A DNA stretch of 46,042 nt from Paracoccaceae bacterium (GTDB taxonomy: Bacteria; Pseudomonadota; Alphaproteobacteria; Rhodobacterales; Rhodobacteraceae): NCBI GenBank assembly GCA_021741245.1, contig JAIOYF010000022.1, positions 1 through 46,042 of the forward strand, in the 5' to 3' direction. Numbering within the stretch: the stretch's first letter is position 1; each line of letters starts with the position of its first letter. The notes beneath the pieces are model-generated. The model searched no databases. It was not told where the DNA came from and saw only the letters and a program-made list of their open reading frames with translations. This document shows positions 8,381 to 16,241 of the stretch, one piece after another. A program made the translations under genes and the position numbers.

Positions 8381-8426
8381 TCATCTGTTCTTAAATATCC
8401 TGGGGGTCCGGGGGCAAAGCCCCCGG
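8381..8426 (-). repeat. Hairpin plus GGATATTT repeat, copy A
   Basis: Read on the minus strand: a perfect 8-bp stem CCGGGGGC/GCCCCCGG (8426-8408), then CCCCCAGGATATTT, two A, and GAACAGATGA (ending 8381). It overlaps the last codons and the stop of the ligase gene, encoding its PPGALPPDPQDI tail. An inverted copy lies at 10038-10104. I recall similar GC-hairpin plus GGATATTT stretches as recurrent intergenic sequence in Rhodobacterales. Confidence 0.7.
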
Positions 8427-10010
8427 CGGTTGCCGCAAAAGCGCCCGTAGGGTGTCTATCGTGTCGATCTCATCTGCACTTTTATCCTGACGCCAGCGCA
8501 GCATCCGGGGAAAGCGCAGGGCGATGCCCGATTTGTGGCGCGGGCTTTCCTGAATGCCCTCAAAGGCAAGCTCAAACACCAATGTGGGCGGCACACGCCG
8601 CACCGGGCCAAACCGTTCCAGCGTGTTTTTCTGCACCCAAGCCGTGATCTGCGCAAATTCCGCATCGGTCAGGCCGGAATAGGCCTTGGCAAAGGGCACA
8701 AGGTCGTTGCCATCGCGTACGGCAAAGGTGAAATCGGTGAACAGGTTGGCCCGCCGCCCGTGGCCTGCCTGCGCATAGATCATCACGGCATCCACGCTGT
8801 AGGGGTCCAGCTTCCACTTCCACCAATCACCGCGCCTGCGCCCGATGTGATAGGGCGAGGACAGGCGCTTGAGCATCAGCCCCTCTGCCTGCCGGGCGCG
8901 CGCCTCTTGCCGCAGGGCCGCAAGGCCCGACCAATCCATGGCCTCAGCCCGGGGGGACAGGCGCAGCGCAAGGCCATCGGGCAGGGCATTCACCAGACGC
9001 TCCAGACGGGCGCGCCGTTCGGATAAGGGCTGCGCCCGCAGATCGGTGCCGTCTGATTCCAAAAGATCATAGGCAAGGATCAAGGCGGGGGCTTCGGCCA
9101 AAAGCTTCTTCGGCACCGTTTTGCGGCCAATGCGTTTTTGCAGATGGGCAAAAGGCAAAGGGTCCGCGCCGCCCCATGCCACGATCTCTCCATCAATCAC
9201 GGTGCCGGGGGGCAGGAAATCCGCAAGCGGGGCGAATTCGGGAAAGCGGTCGGTGATCAATTCCTCCCCTCGGCTCCATAGGGCAAATGCGCCGGGGCGC
9301 GCGATCAATTGGCCCCGGATCCCATCCCATTTCCACTCTGCCAGCCATTCCTGAACCGGGCCAAGCGTTTGCGGGTCTTCGTCCATGGGGCTGGCAAGGG
9401 CAAAGGGATAGGGCCGTGCACCGACATCGCCGCCGCCCTCTTGCGTCAACTGCTCAAACGAGGTCGTGGCTGGATCCCATTCCCCCATCAGCCGATGGGC
9501 CAAAGTCGTTTCCTCCACCCCGGTCGCCTGTGCCAAGGCCCGTGTCATCAGGCCTTGGCTGACCCCCATCCGAAAGCCGCCGGTGATCAGTTTGTTGAAC
9601 AAAAAGCGTGCATCCGGGCCAAGGCTGGCCCAAGCGTCAAGGACATAGGCGCGCCGCTCGGTCTCGGGGCGTCCGGTCAGGGCGATCAACTGGCGCAGGG
9701 TCGTGTCCATGCTTTGCCCCGCCCCCGTCGCACCAAAGGGCAAAAGCCGCGCAATGGTTTCGGCCAGATCACCCGCCACGGCATAGCTTTCCTCAAACAA
9801 CCACAGCGGAATTCCCGCCGCCTCTGCCGCCCAAAGCCGCAGTTCGGTGGAAGTCACCGCCCGCTTGGGGCGACGGCCGGACAAAAGGGCGATGGTCCAG
9901 ACCCGGTCCGCCTTGGGTGCCGTGCGAAAATAGTCCGCAAGGGCCAAGGTCTTTTCCCCGGTCTTGGTGGTGGCGTCGAGCGCGTTGAAGAGGGTAGCGA
10001 AATCTTTCAT
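8391..10010 (-). CDS. ATP-dependent DNA ligase, DNA-damage-response (LigC-type cluster) form
   Basis: 539 aa. The N-terminal ~200 residues form the ligase DNA-binding domain. The nucleotidyltransferase domain follows, with the AMP-accepting lysine Lys227 in EWKWDGIRG (motif I KxDG), motif VIDGEIVAW, EGLMLKR (motif IV) and WWKWK (motif V). The C-terminal OB domain has VFELAFEGIQESPRHKSGIALRFPR. It seals nicks using ATP. Its partner gene at 10111 is the matching exonuclease, together two of the four genes usually found in this bacterial ligase-associated damage-response cluster. The C-terminal tail PPGALPPDPQDI is encoded by a repeat element, so the native end may have been extended or replaced. 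Confidence 0.9.
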   Translation of the reverse strand: MKDFATLFNALDATTKTGEKTLALADYFRTAPKADRVWTIALLSGRRPKRAVTSTELRLWAAEAAGIPLWLFEESYAVAGDLAETIARLLPFGATGAGQSMDTTLRQLIALTGRPETERRAYVLDAWASLGPDARFLFNKLITGGFRMGVSQGLMTRALAQATGVEETTLAHRLMGEWDPATTSFEQLTQEGGGDVGARPYPFALASPMDEDPQTLGPVQEWLAEWKWDGIRGQLIARPGAFALWSRGEELITDRFPEFAPLADFLPPGTVIDGEIVAWGGADPLPFAHLQKRIGRKTVPKKLLAEAPALILAYDLLESDGTDLRAQPLSERRARLERLVNALPDGLALRLSPRAEAMDWSGLAALRQEARARQAEGLMLKRLSSPYHIGRRRGDWWKWKLDPYSVDAVMIYAQAGHGRRANLFTDFTFAVRDGNDLVPFAKAYSGLTDAEFAQITAWVQKNTLERFGPVRRVPPTLVFELAFEGIQESPRHKSGIALRFPRMLRWRQDKSADEIDTIDTLRALLRQPPGALPPDPQDI

Positions 10011-10037
10011 CCGCTGCGGCCTTGGCTGGGCCGGGGC

Positions 10038-10104
10038 AGGGGGGCTGTCTGCCCCCCTCGGCGCATGCGCGCCTCACCCCCCGAGGATATTTTTGAACAG
10101 ATGA
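10038..10104 (+). repeat. Hairpin plus GGATATTT repeat, copy B
   Basis: Read on the plus strand: stem AGGGGGGC/GCCCCCCT (10038-10045 with 10051-10058), a second small stem in GGCGCATGCGCGCC (10060-10073), then CCCCCCGAGGATATTTTTGA and ACAGATGA to 10104. It fills the gap between the ligase start and the exonuclease stop. The GAACAGATGA end (10095-10104) is a perfect inverted match to TCATCTGTTC at 8381-8390. Confidence 0.7.
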
Positions 10105-10110
10105 TGCCGG

Positions 10111-11142
10111 TCATGGGGAGCTATGGTCTTCTTCTAGGACCGGAGTGGGTGTTTCGACCTCATCCCCGCCATAGTCGGTGCTGACGATCCCGGCCTCATA
10201 GCCCTGTTCTTCCAGCCAGCGGCGAAAGGGGGTGGTGTAGCCGTGGGTGGCGAAGATGCGGGTGGCGCCAGTTTCCTTGATGGCGGCATTCAGGCCCGGC
10301 CAATCGGCGTGGTCTGAAATGGTGAAGCCTTGGCCCAACCCGCGACGGCGACGGATGCCGCGCAGGGCCATCCAGCCACTGGCAAAGGCCTCGACCGTCG
10401 GGCCAAAGCGTGCGGCCCAGGGGCTGCCCAAGGCCGAGGGTGGGGCGATCACAAGGGCGCCGGGGTGGGTTTTGGCGGTGATCTGGGCGGTCACGCGGGT
10501 GGTGGTGGGGATGGGATAACCTTGGTCACGCAAGATGCGGGTGGTTTCCTCAACCGCGCCATGGGTCAGGATCGGGCCGAGCGGTGGCAGCATCGAGATC
10601 AGCCGTTGTGCCTTGCCCAAGCCATAGGCGGCAAGGATCGGGGTGCACCCTTGAGTCTGCGCCTCGGCCCACCACGAGGCGATCTGGGCCGCGATGCTGG
10701 GCTGAGGTTCCCATTGGAACAAGGGCAGGCCAAAGGTGCATTCGGTGATGAAGCTATGGCAGCGCTGGGGGGCGAAGGCCTCGGACAGGCCGTCATCCTC
10801 GACCTTGTAGTCGCCAGAGACGACCCAGACCTCACCCCGCCGCTCGACCCTTATCTGGGCTGATCCCGGCACATGTCCTGCGGGGTGAAAGCTGACCATG
10901 ACGTCGCCGATGCGGCGCGCCTCGCCATAGGCGATGCCGTGGATGTCGATGGTCCCAAGGCGGTGGCGGATGACTGGCAGGGCCTGATGGGTGGCAAGAT
11001 AGGTGCCATGTCCGGGGCGGGCGTGATCGGAATGGCCATGCGTGATCAAGGCCCGCGCAACCGGCCGCCAAGGATCAATGTAAAATCCGCCATCGGGGCA
11101 GTAGATGCCCCTGTCGGTAAAGGTCAGGACAGCTGTGCTCAT
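10111..11142 (-). CDS. Ligase-associated DNA-damage-response exonuclease (metallo-beta-lactamase fold)
   Basis: A 343-aa metallo-beta-lactamase/beta-CASP-type nuclease. The metal-binding motif THGHSDHA is at residues 34-41 (His35, His37, Asp39, His40), with HPAGHVPGSAQI and SGDYK as following motifs and FTISDHADWPGL near the end. This matches the SNM1-like exonuclease that travels with ATP-dependent ligases in many proteobacteria and is thought to process DNA ends. The start at 11142 (MSTAVLTF) was chosen over the longer frame because the extra 50 residues look non-coding and the protein then begins at the usual place. The ligase lies 100 bases downstream. Confidence 0.9.
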   Translation of the reverse strand: MSTAVLTFTDRGIYCPDGGFYIDPWRPVARALITHGHSDHARPGHGTYLATHQALPVIRHRLGTIDIHGIAYGEARRIGDVMVSFHPAGHVPGSAQIRVERRGEVWVVSGDYKVEDDGLSEAFAPQRCHSFITECTFGLPLFQWEPQPSIAAQIASWWAEAQTQGCTPILAAYGLGKAQRLISMLPPLGPILTHGAVEETTRILRDQGYPIPTTTRVTAQITAKTHPGALVIAPPSALGSPWAARFGPTVEAFASGWMALRGIRRRRGLGQGFTISDHADWPGLNAAIKETGATRIFATHGYTTPFRRWLEEQGYEAGIVSTDYGGDEVETPTPVLEEDHSSP

Positions 11143-11403
11143 TGTATAAAGAATAGCACGACACCAGTGCCAAGAAAGGCGCAAGCGTCTGCGTCTTTCA
11201 ATGTCCCAGTCTGCTGGCTGTTTGCGCAATGGATTTGGTAGGCCGGACCCGTCCAACGTCAAAGATCGGGGCAGGGCGATGTGAACCCCCAACTATGCCC
11301 GAAAAATAGGCGGTCGCATCGAGATTGGGCGCGGGCTTTGTGCAAGAGGCTTTTCTTCCTGCGGGCCGCCTGATTAACTGGCCCCAAGAACCGGGCAACG
11401 GGG

Positions 11404-12822
11404 GTGGCGGTGACAAGCTATTTCAACGAGATGTATCACGATCAGGCGGTGCGGCCCCCTTATGCGAGGTTGCAAAACTGGGTCCAGTCGATGCCAGCAG
11501 AATTGCGCCAGATGAAGCAAGCGGAGGCGGAAGCCCTGTTTCGGCGCATCGGAATCACCTTTGCGGTCTATGGCGAGGGTGGCGATCCTGACCGGCTTAT
11601 CCCCTTTGACATGTTTCCCCGCGTGTTCAGCGGTGCGGAATGGTCGCGTCTTGAACGCGGGATCAAGCAAAGGGCACGGGCGTTGAATGCCTTTCTGGTC
11701 GATGTCTATGGTCGAGGAGAGATTGTTCGGGCAGGCCGGATCCCCGGCAGGCTGGTCTATCAAAACGAGGCTTATGAAAAGGCCGTGGTCGGTATCGTGC
11801 CGCCCAAAGGCGTCTACAGCCATATCGTGGGCATTGATCTGGTGCGCACGGGGCCAGATGATTTCTTTGTCTTGGAAGACAATTGCCGCACGCCAAGCGG
11901 TGTCAGCTATATGCTGGAAAACCGCGAAATCATGATGCGGATGTTTCCTGACATTTTCCGCGAGAACCGGATCGAGCCGGTTGAACAGTATCCGGCGGCC
12001 CTGCGCAGGACCTTGGCCTCGGTCGCGCCGCAGAAATGTGATCGGGAGCCGACGGTTGTCATCCTGACGCCGGGCCATTTCAATAGCGCCTATTACGAAC
12101 ACTCCTTCCTTGCGGACCTGATGGGGGTGGAACTGGTCGAAGGGCAGGATTTGTTCGTGGAAGGCGAGTTTGTCTTTATGCGCACGACCGAAGGCCCAAA
12201 GCGGGTTGATGTGATCTATCGCCGCATCGATGATGCCTTTATCGACCCGTTGTGTTTCCGGCCCGACAGCATGTTGGGTATTCCGGGGCTGATGGATGTC
12301 TACCGCTCGGGTGGGGTGGCGATTTGCTCGGCCCCGGGGGCTGGGGTTGCCGACGACAAGGCGGTCTATACCTATGTGCCCGAAATGATACGATTCTATC
12401 TGGGGGAAGAGCCGTTGTTGCAAAACGTGCCAACATGGCAATGTGGCAAGGCGGATGATCTGAAATATGTGCTGGAGCATCTGGCCGAACTGGTGGTGAA
12501 AGAGGTTCACGGCTCTGGCGGCTATGGCATGCTGGTAGGGCCGAAATCGACCAAGGATCAGGTCGAGAATTTCCGTGCCCGCATTCTGGCAGACCCGGGA
12601 AACTATATCGCCCAGCCAACCCTTGCGCTGTCCACAACGCCGACCTTTGTGGAAGAGGGCGTGGCACCGCGCCATGTCGACTTGCGCCCCTATTGCCTTG
12701 TGGGCGAGCGGATCGAATTGGTGCCGGGGGGCTTGACCCGCGTGGCACTGACCGAAGGGTCGTTGGTCGTGAACTCGTCACAGGGCGGGGGCGTCAAGGA
12801 CACTTGGGTTCTGGCGGAGTGA
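11404..12822 (+). CDS. Circularly permuted ATP-grasp protein of the Anbu cluster
   Basis: 472 aa of the CP_ATPgrasp family (former DUF404/DUF407). Recognisable blocks include NEAYEKAVVG, FVLEDNCRTPSGVSYMLENR, LTPGHFNSAYYEHSFLA and KEVHGSGGYGMLVGP, the last a nucleotide-binding glycine-rich strand, then GSLVVNSSQGGGVKDTWVL at the end. Such proteins are predicted to join a carboxylate to an amine using ATP, perhaps making a peptide tag, but the substrate is unknown. The start is GTG at 11404 or GTG at 11410. It is the first gene of a tightly packed group with the alpha-E, transglutaminase and Anbu peptidase genes, and is divergent from the exonuclease with 261 bases between. Confidence 0.88.
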   Translation: MAVTSYFNEMYHDQAVRPPYARLQNWVQSMPAELRQMKQAEAEALFRRIGITFAVYGEGGDPDRLIPFDMFPRVFSGAEWSRLERGIKQRARALNAFLVDVYGRGEIVRAGRIPGRLVYQNEAYEKAVVGIVPPKGVYSHIVGIDLVRTGPDDFFVLEDNCRTPSGVSYMLENREIMMRMFPDIFRENRIEPVEQYPAALRRTLASVAPQKCDREPTVVILTPGHFNSAYYEHSFLADLMGVELVEGQDLFVEGEFVFMRTTEGPKRVDVIYRRIDDAFIDPLCFRPDSMLGIPGLMDVYRSGGVAICSAPGAGVADDKAVYTYVPEMIRFYLGEEPLLQNVPTWQCGKADDLKYVLEHLAELVVKEVHGSGGYGMLVGPKSTKDQVENFRARILADPGNYIAQPTLALSTTPTFVEEGVAPRHVDLRPYCLVGERIELVPGGLTRVALTEGSLVVNSSQGGGVKDTWVLAE

Positions 12823-12826
12823 TGGA

Positions 12827-13777
12827 ATGCTAAGCAGGACTGCAGATAACCTTTACTGGATCGCCCGAAATATCGAGCGGGCAGAGACGACGGCGCGCTT
12901 TTTGGAAGTGGGTGCGCGGATCGCGCTTTTGCCCTCGGCTGCCGGGTATCGCAACGAATGGGACAGCTTGTTGCGTGCCAGTGGCACGGCAGACGGATTT
13001 GCCAAGAAATATGGCGATCCGGTCCAGCGCAACATCGAAAGCTATTTGTTCTTTGACTATGATAATCCGTCGTCAGTGGCCAATTGCATCACCCGCGCGC
13101 GCGAAAATGGCCGCATTGTGCGCACGGCCCTGACCACGCAGGTTTGGGACGCGCTGAACACCGCGTTTCAGGAATTGCGCCAACTGGAACGCACGCCGCG
13201 CAGCCAGTTGGATTTGTCGCGCCTGACGGAATGGACAATGCGCCATGCCGCGATGGTGCGGGGGGCGATTGATGCCACGCTTTTGCGCAATGATGGCTGG
13301 GACTTTCTGAACCTTGGCTACTATCTGGAGCGGGCCGACAACACGGCGCGCTTGATGGATGTGAAGTACTATGTGCTTTTGCCACGGGTGGAGTATGTGG
13401 GCTCTGGCCTCGACAACTACCAATGGACTACGCTTTTGCGGGCGATGTCGTCACACCGGGCCTTTCATTGGGCCTATGGCGGTGAAGTGACGGCTGGCAA
13501 GATCGCCCATTTCCTTATCCTGAACCCGCAATGCCCCAGAAGCCTGATCACCAGCATCCAAGGGATGAATACCCATCTTGACCGACTTGGGCGTGGTTAC
13601 CATCGCAGTTCGACCGCGCAGGGCAATGCACGAAGCTTGCTTGCCCAACTTGCCGAAATGCGGGTCGAGGATGTGTTTGAAGAGGGGCTGCATGAGTTCT
13701 TGTCGCGGTTCATCGGCGAGGTGGCACAGTTGGGCGTGGTGATTCACAATAGCTATCTGAATGGGGATGTGCGCTGA
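12827..13777 (+). CDS. Alpha-E domain protein of the Anbu cluster
   Basis: A 316-aa helical protein of the alpha-E family (former DUF403). It begins MLSRTADNLYWIARNIERAE, the family hallmark, and repeats a similar helix later as NLGYYLERADNTARLMDVKYYVLL. It has no known catalytic motif. The family nearly always sits between a permuted ATP-grasp and a transglutaminase, as here, suggesting a structural or substrate-holding role in the same pathway. It starts four bases after the ATP-grasp stop, and its own stop overlaps the next start (TGATG). Confidence 0.9.
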   Translation: MLSRTADNLYWIARNIERAETTARFLEVGARIALLPSAAGYRNEWDSLLRASGTADGFAKKYGDPVQRNIESYLFFDYDNPSSVANCITRARENGRIVRTALTTQVWDALNTAFQELRQLERTPRSQLDLSRLTEWTMRHAAMVRGAIDATLLRNDGWDFLNLGYYLERADNTARLMDVKYYVLLPRVEYVGSGLDNYQWTTLLRAMSSHRAFHWAYGGEVTAGKIAHFLILNPQCPRSLITSIQGMNTHLDRLGRGYHRSSTAQGNARSLLAQLAEMRVEDVFEEGLHEFLSRFIGEVAQLGVVIHNSYLNGDVR

Positions 13778-14583
13778 TGCGGTTGATCGTCGATCATGTG
13801 ACCCACTATCGTTATGACCTGCCCGTTCGTGCGGTCGTGCAAAGCCACCGTCTGACGCCGTCTTTGTTCGATGGCCAGCGGGTCATCCGTTGGAAGATTT
13901 CCGTGAGTGATGGCCAAATGGGCGGTGGCTTTCGGGATGGGGCGGGGGATTGGGTTCAGGGCTGGACAGTGCTTGGCCCCGTCTCTGGCATCAAGGTCCA
14001 TGTCGAAGGTGAGGTGGAGACGACCGATCTGACCGGCATGTTGCGGGGACACCGGGAAACAGTTCCGCCGCTGACCTACTTGCACCACACCCTTCCGACA
14101 CGGGCGGATATGGCGCTGGCCAAGCTGGGAGAAGGTCTGGAAGACACCACCGATTCCCTTGGGGTCGCCCATGAGCTTTCGCGACGTGTGGCAGATGCGA
14201 TCCATTATCGGCCGGGCGTGACCCACAACAACACAACCGCAGCCGAGGCGCTCGCCCTTGGCGAAGGGGTCTGTCAGGATCATGCCCATGCCTTGATTGC
14301 AGTTGCGCGTCACGTTGGGATTCCGGCGCGCTATGTCTCTGGATATCTGCACACAGACGGGGATGGAACAATGCAGGAGGCTGCCCATGCCTGGGCTGAA
14401 CTGCATGTCGACGGCTTTGGCTGGGTTGGATTCGATCCGGCAAACAGATGCTGCCCGGATGATCGGTATATCCGGCTTGGTTCGGGCCTTGATGCGCAAG
14501 ACGCGGCACCGATTCGGGGATCAGCCCGCGGTCTGGGTGAGGAAAGTTTGGACGTGACCGTATCGGTGCAAACGCAGCAATAG
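13777..14583 (+). CDS. Transglutaminase-like cysteine protease of the Anbu cluster
   Basis: 268 aa. The N-terminal beta domain starts MRLIVDHVTHYRYDLPV, as in bacterial transglutaminase-like proteins. The core has a Cys-His-Asp triad: Cys166 in LGEGVCQDHAH, His204 in AAHAWAELH and Asp220 in GWVGFDPAN. Members can cleave or crosslink amides. With the ATP-grasp and alpha-E proteins it probably forms a peptide ligation/hydrolysis pathway that ends at the Anbu peptidase; this is inference from conserved clustering. No signal peptide is visible, so it is likely cytoplasmic. Confidence 0.9.
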   Translation: MRLIVDHVTHYRYDLPVRAVVQSHRLTPSLFDGQRVIRWKISVSDGQMGGGFRDGAGDWVQGWTVLGPVSGIKVHVEGEVETTDLTGMLRGHRETVPPLTYLHHTLPTRADMALAKLGEGLEDTTDSLGVAHELSRRVADAIHYRPGVTHNNTTAAEALALGEGVCQDHAHALIAVARHVGIPARYVSGYLHTDGDGTMQEAAHAWAELHVDGFGWVGFDPANRCCPDDRYIRLGSGLDAQDAAPIRGSARGLGEESLDVTVSVQTQQ

Positions 14584-14701
14584 ATCAGCGTTTCTCGGAA
14601 GGATTGTTTCCAATGCGGCGTGAATTTCTTTTTTCCGCCCATATTCTGACAAACAGGGCATGCAATTTGCACCTCAGAGTAAAGTTCGCCGGAGGTATGG
14701 T

Positions 14702-15424
14702 ATGTCCTTGACCTATGATTTTGATATTTTTGATGTGATCCCGACCGAGGGCGAGGATGATCCGACGCTTGGCCGTTTCATGTCCGAAATAGGCTTTGGC
14801 CCGGATCAACAGTCAAAGAAAGTAGCTTTGTTTCGCTACCAGGGTACGGCGGACGCCCTGCGCGTTGCGCCCGATGTTTTGCGCGACTTCTTTGTTGCGT
14901 CAGGGTTTGGTCTGAACACCTATCACTCTGGTGCCCCTGATGGGTATTACCCTGCAAAGGATGAAGATGCCCGCCTCGATATCATCCGGCAACTGACCGA
15001 AAATGCAGAAGTCTATGACTTGCCAAGAATCGCAGAGCACGGCGAAGACGGGCAGGGGTTCGTGCTTGGCGATTTTCTGACCGCCTTGGCGCATGCACAG
15101 CCTATTGAAATGCCCAAAGAGGAGCGGCCACTTGAGCCGTCCTTTGTGTCATCGACCCCCATGGTGCAGGGGGCGGCACCTGAGGTCGATTTGGCTCTGA
15201 TTGCCGACATGGTTGAAGCGTCGAACGCGGCCACCCCACATGATTTGCGCCATCCGCACGAGGTGCGGCCCAAATCCATGCCGCCGATGTTTGACACCGC
15301 CCCGGCAGCGGCCACACCGGCCCGCAAGAAATTCTGGCAAGGCAAGTTTTTCTTTCGATCCCTTTCGTTTGGGGCGATGCTGGCCGCTGTTCAGATCACG
15401 ACCGGGTTCGGCCATTTGGTCTGA
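14702..15424 (+). CDS. Unrecognised 240-aa protein in the Anbu cluster
   Basis: I do not recognise this protein. It starts at ATG 14702 after GGAGG (14691-14695), giving 240 aa. Residues 1-130 look like a folded acidic domain (starts MSLTYDFDIFDVIPTEGEDD, later FVASGFGLNTYHSGAP). Residues 135-215 are a low-complexity, proline- and acid-rich linker. The end (KKFWQGKFFFRSLSFGAMLA and on) is basic then hydrophobic, perhaps a membrane-associating tail. It lies between the transglutaminase (118-base gap) and the Anbu peptidase (94-base gap), same strand. It is not one of the standard cluster members I know, so it may be a lineage-specific addition or an unrelated insertion. Confidence 0.7.
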   Translation: MSLTYDFDIFDVIPTEGEDDPTLGRFMSEIGFGPDQQSKKVALFRYQGTADALRVAPDVLRDFFVASGFGLNTYHSGAPDGYYPAKDEDARLDIIRQLTENAEVYDLPRIAEHGEDGQGFVLGDFLTALAHAQPIEMPKEERPLEPSFVSSTPMVQGAAPEVDLALIADMVEASNAATPHDLRHPHEVRPKSMPPMFDTAPAAATPARKKFWQGKFFFRSLSFGAMLAAVQITTGFGHLV

Positions 15425-15518
15425 ACGTCCATAGTAGCTAATGAATGATCCGAAATCGCGCTTTCCAACGGCATGATGGGGCGCTAGCACTGAGGCTCAC
15501 AAGACTTGGGGGCTTTGG

Positions 15519-16241
15519 ATGACCTATTGCGTGGGCCTGTTGCTAAACGAAGGTATGGTCATGCTTTCGGATACCCGCACGAATGCGGGGCTGGATAACA
15601 TCGCCACCTATCGCAAAATGTTCCAGTTTGAAGAACCGGGTGAACGGGTGATCACAATCGTGACCGCCGGAAGCCTTTCCGTCACCCAGACCACCATCGC
15701 GCGGCTGCGTGAGGCGGCGGACCTGCCGGATGCAACGCCAGAGACCTCGATCTTGCTTGCGCCGACGATGCTCAAAGTCGCGGAAATTGTCGGGGCCACC
15801 TTGGCGGATGTTCGGCGCGAGATTGACCAAAAGCTGTCCATGGCCCAAGGCGCGAGCGCCACAATGATCGTTGCTGGTCAGCGCAAGGGCGGCACCATGC
15901 GGATGTTCTTGATCTATCCCGAGGGCAACTTTATCGAAGCGACCGAAGACACGCCGTATCTCCAGATCGGCGAGCACAAATACGGCAAGCCGATTCTGGA
16001 CCGGGTTGTCAAGCCCAACACAACCTTGGCCGACGCGCAAAAGGCGGTCCTGCTGTCGATGGACTCCACCTTGCGGTCAAACCTGTCGGTCGGGATGCCC
16101 TTGGATATGTGCGTGATCTACCGTGACGATTGCCGTGTTGGAATTCAGCGGCGGATTGAGGCGGGGGACGAATCTTTCCGCAACATGAGCGACGCTTGGT
16201 CAAAGGCGCTGCGGGACGGATTCACACAAATCACCATCTGA
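15519..16241 (+). CDS. Anbu peptidase (ancestral proteasome beta-subunit homologue)
   Basis: 240 aa, the usual size. It begins MTYCVGLLLNEGMVMLSDTR: after removal of Met, Thr is the N-terminal residue in the position of the catalytic nucleophile of Ntn-type peptidases, and MVMLSDTRTN is the proteasome-type strand with a conserved Asp. VTAGSLSVTQ and a later SVGMPLDMCVIYRDD fit the family. Anbu proteins form ring or helical assemblies and are predicted to degrade a product of the neighbouring ATP-grasp/transglutaminase pathway. Here the peptidase is preceded by an unrecognised gene rather than directly by the transglutaminase. A 10-bp hairpin follows the stop. Confidence 0.92.
   Translation: MTYCVGLLLNEGMVMLSDTRTNAGLDNIATYRKMFQFEEPGERVITIVTAGSLSVTQTTIARLREAADLPDATPETSILLAPTMLKVAEIVGATLADVRREIDQKLSMAQGASATMIVAGQRKGGTMRMFLIYPEGNFIEATEDTPYLQIGEHKYGKPILDRVVKPNTTLADAQKAVLLSMDSTLRSNLSVGMPLDMCVIYRDDCRVGIQRRIEAGDESFRNMSDAWSKALRDGFTQITI

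Follow-up and report, generated by a model that had tools for sequence, protein, structure and literature searches.

The Locus and Its Genes

The window, by which we mean the whole analyzed stretch of 46,042 nucleotides from a Paracoccaceae bacterium (contig JAIOYF010000022.1), carries five genes on its forward strand at positions 11404–16241, which an original prediction made from the DNA letters had described as a cluster around the proteasome-like peptidase Anbu. All five frames lie at that place and on that strand. They are the known Anbu operon, which comprises genes for an ATP-grasp protein, an Alpha-E protein, a transglutaminase-like protein (TG) and Anbu (PMC5666114, PMC6376114), plus one lineage-specific extra gene. 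Two features go further than the original prediction, namely that the extra gene is limited at this place to the genus in the genomes examined, and that the TG carries a conserved glutamine at its chain end. A description of this tail was not found in the literature searched on the Anbu operon; Iyer et al. 2009 and Valas and Bourne 2008 lay outside that search and may describe it. Published papers are cited from excerpts throughout, and labels beginning with L and G denote loci and genomes of our comparison set. The features are as follows.

11404..12822, + strand: circularly permuted type 2 ATP-grasp protein, 472 aa (PF14403, CP_ATPgrasp_2, E 2e-166)
12827..13777, + strand: Alpha-E protein, 316 aa (PF04168, E 2e-89)
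13777..14583, + strand: TG, 268 aa, with Cys166, His204 and Asp220 (PF01841 Transglut_core, E 2e-23; PF08379 Bact_transglu_N, E 2.5e-15)
14569..14580, + strand: codons of the TG C-terminal tail, ...QTQQ, ahead of the stop codon (from sequence and conservation)
14702..15424, + strand: intervening protein, 240 aa, a genus-level insertion between TG and Anbu (no family, no solved relative)
15519..16241, + strand: Anbu, a proteasome-type Ntn hydrolase, 240 aa, with Thr1, Asp17 and Lys32 (Proteasome family, E 2e-8)

Families were assigned by Pfam search and structural relatives by sequence search against solved chains, and together these bear out the predicted names of the ATP-grasp, Alpha-E, TG and Anbu proteins. 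The ATP-grasp and Alpha-E genes are 4 nt apart, the Alpha-E and TG genes overlap by one base, and the order ATP-grasp, Alpha-E, TG, Anbu on one strand is the one that defines an Anbu operon. No AAA+ ATPase is encoded in the five-gene stretch by Pfam. The nearest solved chain to the ATP-grasp protein is 3n6x (E 2e-204), labeled a "putative glutathionylspermidine synthase", and a sequence search for solved relatives of the Alpha-E protein returned none at E ≤ 1. Anbu matches five solved chains over nearly its full length (5loy, 5nyj, 5nyf, 5nyw and 5lox; E 1e-73 to 2e-54), which their depositors named Anbu or "Peptidase"; 5lox is named Anbu in PMC8665760. With the catalytic numbering Thr1, Asp17, Lys32(33) of PMC6376114, all three residues are in place, and this, together with the relation to the solved chains, assigns the protein to the Anbu family. 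Across relatives, Thr1 is kept in 115/116 (one Ser) and Asp17 and Lys32 in 116/116. The TG carries the Cys-His-Asp set that had been predicted, and across relatives Cys is kept in 111/114, His in 113/114 and Asp in 114/114.

A Glutamine Chain End Conserved on the Transglutaminase

We gathered neighborhoods of Anbu or Alpha-E across the family, class and phylum and scored every TG whose gene immediately precedes Anbu on the same strand. The first set held 75 of these, and 72 are Gln-terminal, as the window TG is. A phylum set of 60 regions gave 34 Anbu-adjacent TGs, 28 of them Gln-terminal, and pooling with named and genus loci gave 114/124, where sequences with identical last 150 residues are counted once and trimmed frames of <180 or >420 aa are dropped. 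A last set of 20 regions, picked in large part from lineages near exceptions and added with no duplicate check, contributed 16 TGs with 7 Gln ends. Over all sets, Gln is terminal in 121/140 Anbu-adjacent TGs and lies within the last two residues in 134/140, counts that are not independent since many phylum genomes share genera or families. Named examples are Limimaricola variabilis (WP_322337575.1, ...RQQQ), Klebsiella pneumoniae (WXI98071.1, ...QAQQQ), Paracoccus versutus pTAV4 (...EMEQ) and Aeromonas caviae KAM479 (...GQQQ), with Methylobacterium bullatum (...AVQV) as an exception.

Among TGs that do not adjoin Anbu, only 1/33 is Gln-terminal; this class leaves out three Gln-terminal TGs at contig ends, two from the genus (L012, L015) and that of L141. 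A control is provided by a paralogous cluster, seen in the window's own genome on contig C18 (L087 1249–7884), in which genes for a large TG (1117 aa), a fused ATP-grasp–Alpha-E protein (798 aa) and a small TG (302 aa) overlap at their ends and in which the 12 kb examined showed no Anbu. The small TG of this cluster ends ...VIPLN, and TGs at 20 such Anbu-less loci of other genomes, recognized by the fused ATP-grasp–Alpha-E, are Gln-terminal in 0/20. Nor is a Gln end general to the operon, as the ATP-grasp proteins carry one in 1/61 cases, the Alpha-E proteins in 4/88, and Gln is outside the eight commonest last residues of Anbu (79 sequences). The Gln share of the TG body is 3.1%.

Both Gln codons are used in the last two positions (81 CAG, 54 CAA), the tail is kept in 28/28 genus loci, and it persists where the intervening gene spaces TG and Anbu by 854–935 nt (L017, L036, L037). 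These observations make a DNA signal for the Anbu start unlikely. A tree of 139 Anbu-adjacent TGs was built with the final 20 residues cut off. On it the last residue needs only 14 changes, position −2 needs 28, and positions −3 to −10 need 51–72 each, while 64 of 237 well-filled TG columns change as little as the last residue does. Core identity among 123 adjacent TGs has a median of 42% and a lowest value of 30% (2000 sampled pairs). The distant TG of L210 (E 7e-25) is counted as adjacent and stands in the pair-test tree described below, but is omitted from the tail-change and identity trees. Conservation of the chain end is thus roughly on a par with that of the better-conserved quarter of the core, and the tail that precedes it drifts. 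As a feature, the conserved Gln chain end of the TG is well supported; its meaning is not.

The Gene between the Transglutaminase and Anbu

The frame of the intervening protein most likely starts at ATG 14702 (240 aa), rather than at 14660, as judged by a preceding GGAGG and by the starts of its relatives, which align there. The gene is present in 14/15 other genomes of the genus, the exception being an 82% complete assembly. At 16 genus loci, of which L001 belongs to the window and L008 and L016 represent a single place, it follows the TG gene, and Anbu comes next in all except L015, where the fetched piece ends earlier. In 27 loci of other genera (L039–L065), the gap between TG and Anbu is 29–136 nt.

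A profile search with the N-terminal part of the protein (E ≤ 0.01, family genomes) found relatives in 16/293 genomes outside the genus, or 18/295 with it, the weakest four at E 6e-6 to 0.009. Five of these 16, in five genera (G082, G178, G125, G257, G255), lie between or beside pncA and/or pncB (nicotinamidase/nicotinate phosphoribosyltransferase; names by sequence reading), at L033/L074, L034/L078, L035, L073 and L081. None of the 16 has an Anbu in fetched pieces of about 3 kb. Being genus-limited at this place, with relatives elsewhere that lack Anbu, the gene is a late lineage-specific insertion and no core part of the operon, on the evidence of these gene neighborhoods. The original prediction of a compact, conserved set therefore stands for the four known members and fails for the fifth, genus-limited here in the genomes examined, which corrects the parts list of the cluster.

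In the protein, a variable linker joins a conserved N-terminal domain to a hydrophobic segment at the C-terminus. The 19-residue hydropathy of this segment is 1.75–2.56, a clear signal, in three relatives measured and a marginal 1.23 in the window copy; the protein is perhaps a membrane tether. Searches for a family, a solved relative and a fold recognized none. At L085 (1474–3234), the N-terminus of a 7937-aa open frame weakly resembles the conserved domain (E 2.5e-4).

Distribution, Neighbors, and a Possible Link to Nitrogen

Anbu is present in 139/198 genomes examined of the window's family and in 120/349 of the phylum sample. When 45 family genomes were scored for both Anbu and Alpha-E, 34 had both, none had Anbu alone, 2 had Alpha-E alone and 9 had neither, and Alpha-E lies ≤2.5 kb from Anbu in 33 of the 34 Anbu-bearing genomes. 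The cluster is thus more than chance. Other arrangements are also seen. At four family loci (L099–L102), Alpha-E adjoins Anbu with no TG between, and Gln is near the chain end in 3/4 of these Alpha-E proteins and terminal in 2. At L038 (3–1389, one genus), a 28th locus besides the 27 of other genera described above, alpha/beta-hydrolase-like frames, named by reading and not by family search, lie directly upstream of Anbu, with no TG within the 1.5 kb fetched. Anbu matches also occur inside open frames of 841, 1025 and 659 aa (L237, L251 and L252; G544, G580), with no ATP-grasp or Alpha-E match in about 12 kb, so other Anbu contexts may exist in other classes. On the upstream side of the window operon, a divergent pair of genes on the − strand (8391–11292) encodes a ligase-associated exonuclease (TIGR04122) and a bacterial ATP-dependent DNA ligase (TIGR04120), and this pair adjoins the Anbu cluster in 11/12 named genus loci (L028 is too short for judging).

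Expression data from other bacteria suggest that the operon is used when ammonium is scarce. In Pseudomonas putida on nitrate versus ammonium, PP_2685 (Anbu) rises by 4.44 log2 (about 22-fold) and PP_2688 (ATP-grasp) by 3.99 log2 (about 16-fold; PMC8050072, Table 2). Domains of the operon associate with urea-metabolism domains in marine metagenomes (PMC3597751), and a DUF404/407, DUF403, TG, large-TG cluster of Burkholderia cenocepacia is NtrC-dependent (PMC5491218). A cluster of identical order in B. stagnalis lacks Anbu within the 7 kb fetched, and the TG that follows Alpha-E there ends ...TPELV. Expression was unchanged under other conditions reported in PMC5666114, and a nitrogen signal was sought in the window and not found.

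A Possible Role for the Chain End

With the operon in print and Anbu structures solved, this is not a new system. The original prediction had called it poorly described, which holds for the substrate, left open in what we cite of both PMC5666114 and PMC6376114, and not for the operon or its structures. It had further proposed that the TG trims a product of the ATP-grasp/Alpha-E pair; no support for trimming was found, and the Gln tail suggests that the TG is itself a substrate or a docking partner. For the substrate of Anbu, the conserved end of a chain encoded in its own operon offers a concrete candidate.

The reading that we tentatively put first, while holding it to be open to considerable doubt, is that the operon acts on itself, with the Gln-rich TG tail as a substrate that is modified by the ATP-grasp and Alpha-E proteins and restored by Anbu. 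The ATP-grasp protein, aided by Alpha-E, would activate a carboxylate at the TG tail and join it to an amine (an amino acid, a polyamine or a protein lysine), and Thr1 of Anbu would then remove or trim the joined group, making the C-terminal modification reversible. These chemical steps, the identity of the amine and the role of Alpha-E are all inferred. Glutathionylspermidine synthase acts on a short peptide at its C-terminus. In ATP-grasp enzymes, a carboxylate is activated and then transferred to an amine (PMC6376114), and this chemistry, with the label of the nearest solved relative, would make a protein chain end a natural substrate and Anbu its natural remover. The analogy is to the action of RimK/RimB on RpsF and to the Gln/Glu end of Pup, both taken up below.

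Several observations weigh against this reading. Terminal Gln is absent in L199 and L266–L269 despite a TG that adjoins Anbu, and it lies one residue inside in other Anbu-adjacent TGs (...QSQSQS, ...QG, ...QV). Conversely, a Gln-rich tail persists in Sinorhizobium TGs that have no Anbu within 2.6 kb (...QAQN, ...QVQC), and the TG of L146 carries seven Gln at its end although the 4.6 kb fetched contain no Anbu. At several Anbu genes an adjoining TG is missing. Anbu adjacency changes just about 5 times on the tree (L012, L015 and L141 left out), and a phylogenetic pair test found 4 pairs, with Gln moving the same way in 2.7 and the opposite way in 0.1 (p 0.25). To our knowledge, a modified TG tail has not been observed. 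From the literature, Fuchs et al. rate degradation likelier than a peptide-synthesis system and report that proteasome inhibitors bind Anbu, and co-expression of the operon proteins gave no other form of Anbu (PMC5666114).

A docking role for the tail fits the same data nearly as well. Here the tail would occupy an intersubunit groove of Anbu, much like the C-terminal tail of HslU in HslV, and would switch on the peptidase with no covalent change, which we regard as possible though somewhat unlikely. The HslU tail has been superposed into a groove of Anbu, and the inactivity of Anbu, which left three proteasome substrates uncleaved, has been likened to that of HslV without HslU (PMC6376114). 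The same paper found no specific interaction among the operon proteins, Anbu and TG included, but the TG used in the pull-down bore a C-terminal FLAG tag, by which its C-terminus was blocked; likewise, the Yersinia ATP-grasp protein released phosphate from ATP, and the proteins offered to it did not include the TG. Since these tests used a tagged TG or no TG, they address neither the substrate nor the docking model, and the tail shows how earlier tests of Anbu could have missed activity. Against docking, the residues before the last two vary freely, and Anbu is kept in lineages without the Gln end.

It is less probable again, and on the whole unlikely, that Anbu degrades proteins or peptides under nitrogen scarcity while the TG tail is uninvolved, an inherited end with another role or none (solubility, TG dimer contacts). 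The induction in P. putida (PMC8050072), inhibitor binding and the preference of Fuchs et al. (PMC5666114) speak for such a role, as do the loss of the tail in some Anbu-bearing lineages and a pair test that is not significant. An inert tail would be expected to drift, yet the last residue shows 14 changes against the 51–72 before it, and Anbu cleaved none of the three proteasome substrates offered (PMC6376114).

We consider it improbable that the product of ATP-grasp/Alpha-E is a small peptide or a metabolite resembling one, with the TG and Anbu as processing enzymes. This was the model of the original prediction, and PMC5666114 and PMC6376114 credit Iyer et al. 2009 with suggesting a tag or peptide made by that pair and processed by Anbu. 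The enzyme families are present, the nearest solved ATP-grasp relative carries the label of a glutathionylspermidine synthase, and the paralogous cluster works without Anbu. The model leaves the TG chain end unexplained, however, Fuchs et al. rate it less likely (PMC5666114), and the Yersinia ATP-grasp protein was not stimulated by glutamine or glutamate (PMC6376114). Finally, that Anbu is a ligase (transpeptidase) joining the TG tail to another protein end is highly improbable: the proteasome family does include a specific protein ligase, connectase (PMC8665760), and Anbu does not hydrolyze standard substrates (PMC6376114), but Anbu is multimeric where connectase is monomeric (PMC8665760).

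Comparison with Known Systems

The closest known system is the published Anbu operon, with the same four families in the same order and with its Anbu active-site residues present here; the window differs by the extra gene between TG and Anbu. The Anbu-less paralogous cluster shares the combination of ATP-grasp, Alpha-E and TG families, and differs in the fusion of ATP-grasp with Alpha-E, an extra large TG, the lack of Anbu and a small TG without a Gln end. HslV of the HslUV system belongs to the same proteasome-type hydrolase family, but the five-gene stretch encodes no AAA+ ATPase by Pfam, and the one further proteasome-family gene of the genome (C12:32650–33165, E 6e-26) we take, by inference, to be hslV.

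RimK/RimB and RloABC likewise combine an ATP-grasp enzyme with a peptidase (PMC12239564). RimK appends Glu to the RpsF C-terminus, from which RimB takes it off again, and RloB is an inactive transglutaminase and a membrane protein; the excerpt of PMC12239564 mentions no Alpha-E in either system. The peptidases of these systems are of the retropepsin-like, aspartic kind, whereas the peptidase-like member in the window is of the proteasome type.

The Pup-proteasome system (Pup, Dop, PafA) is similar in having a Gln-ended protein, an ATP-dependent ligase and a proteasome relative, and the C-terminal Gln with which Pup is synthesized undergoes deamidation before conjugation (PMC7947786). By this likeness, the TG may be a Pup-like carrier whose C-terminal Gln is activated and conjugated by ATP-grasp/Alpha-E, with Anbu as the matching hydrolase, though we judge this quite unlikely. 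If true, it would represent a separate proteasome-linked conjugation chemistry, induced by ammonium scarcity and shared by many Proteobacteria, and the apparent inactivity of Anbu in tests without TG or with a blocked TG C-terminus would be accounted for. The differences are considerable: Pup is a small Gln/Glu-ended modifier and the Gln-ended protein of the window is a 268-aa TG; the Pup ligase and deamidase have a glutamine-synthetase fold and the ligase-like protein of the window is a circularly permuted ATP-grasp; and the hydrolase of the window is Anbu.

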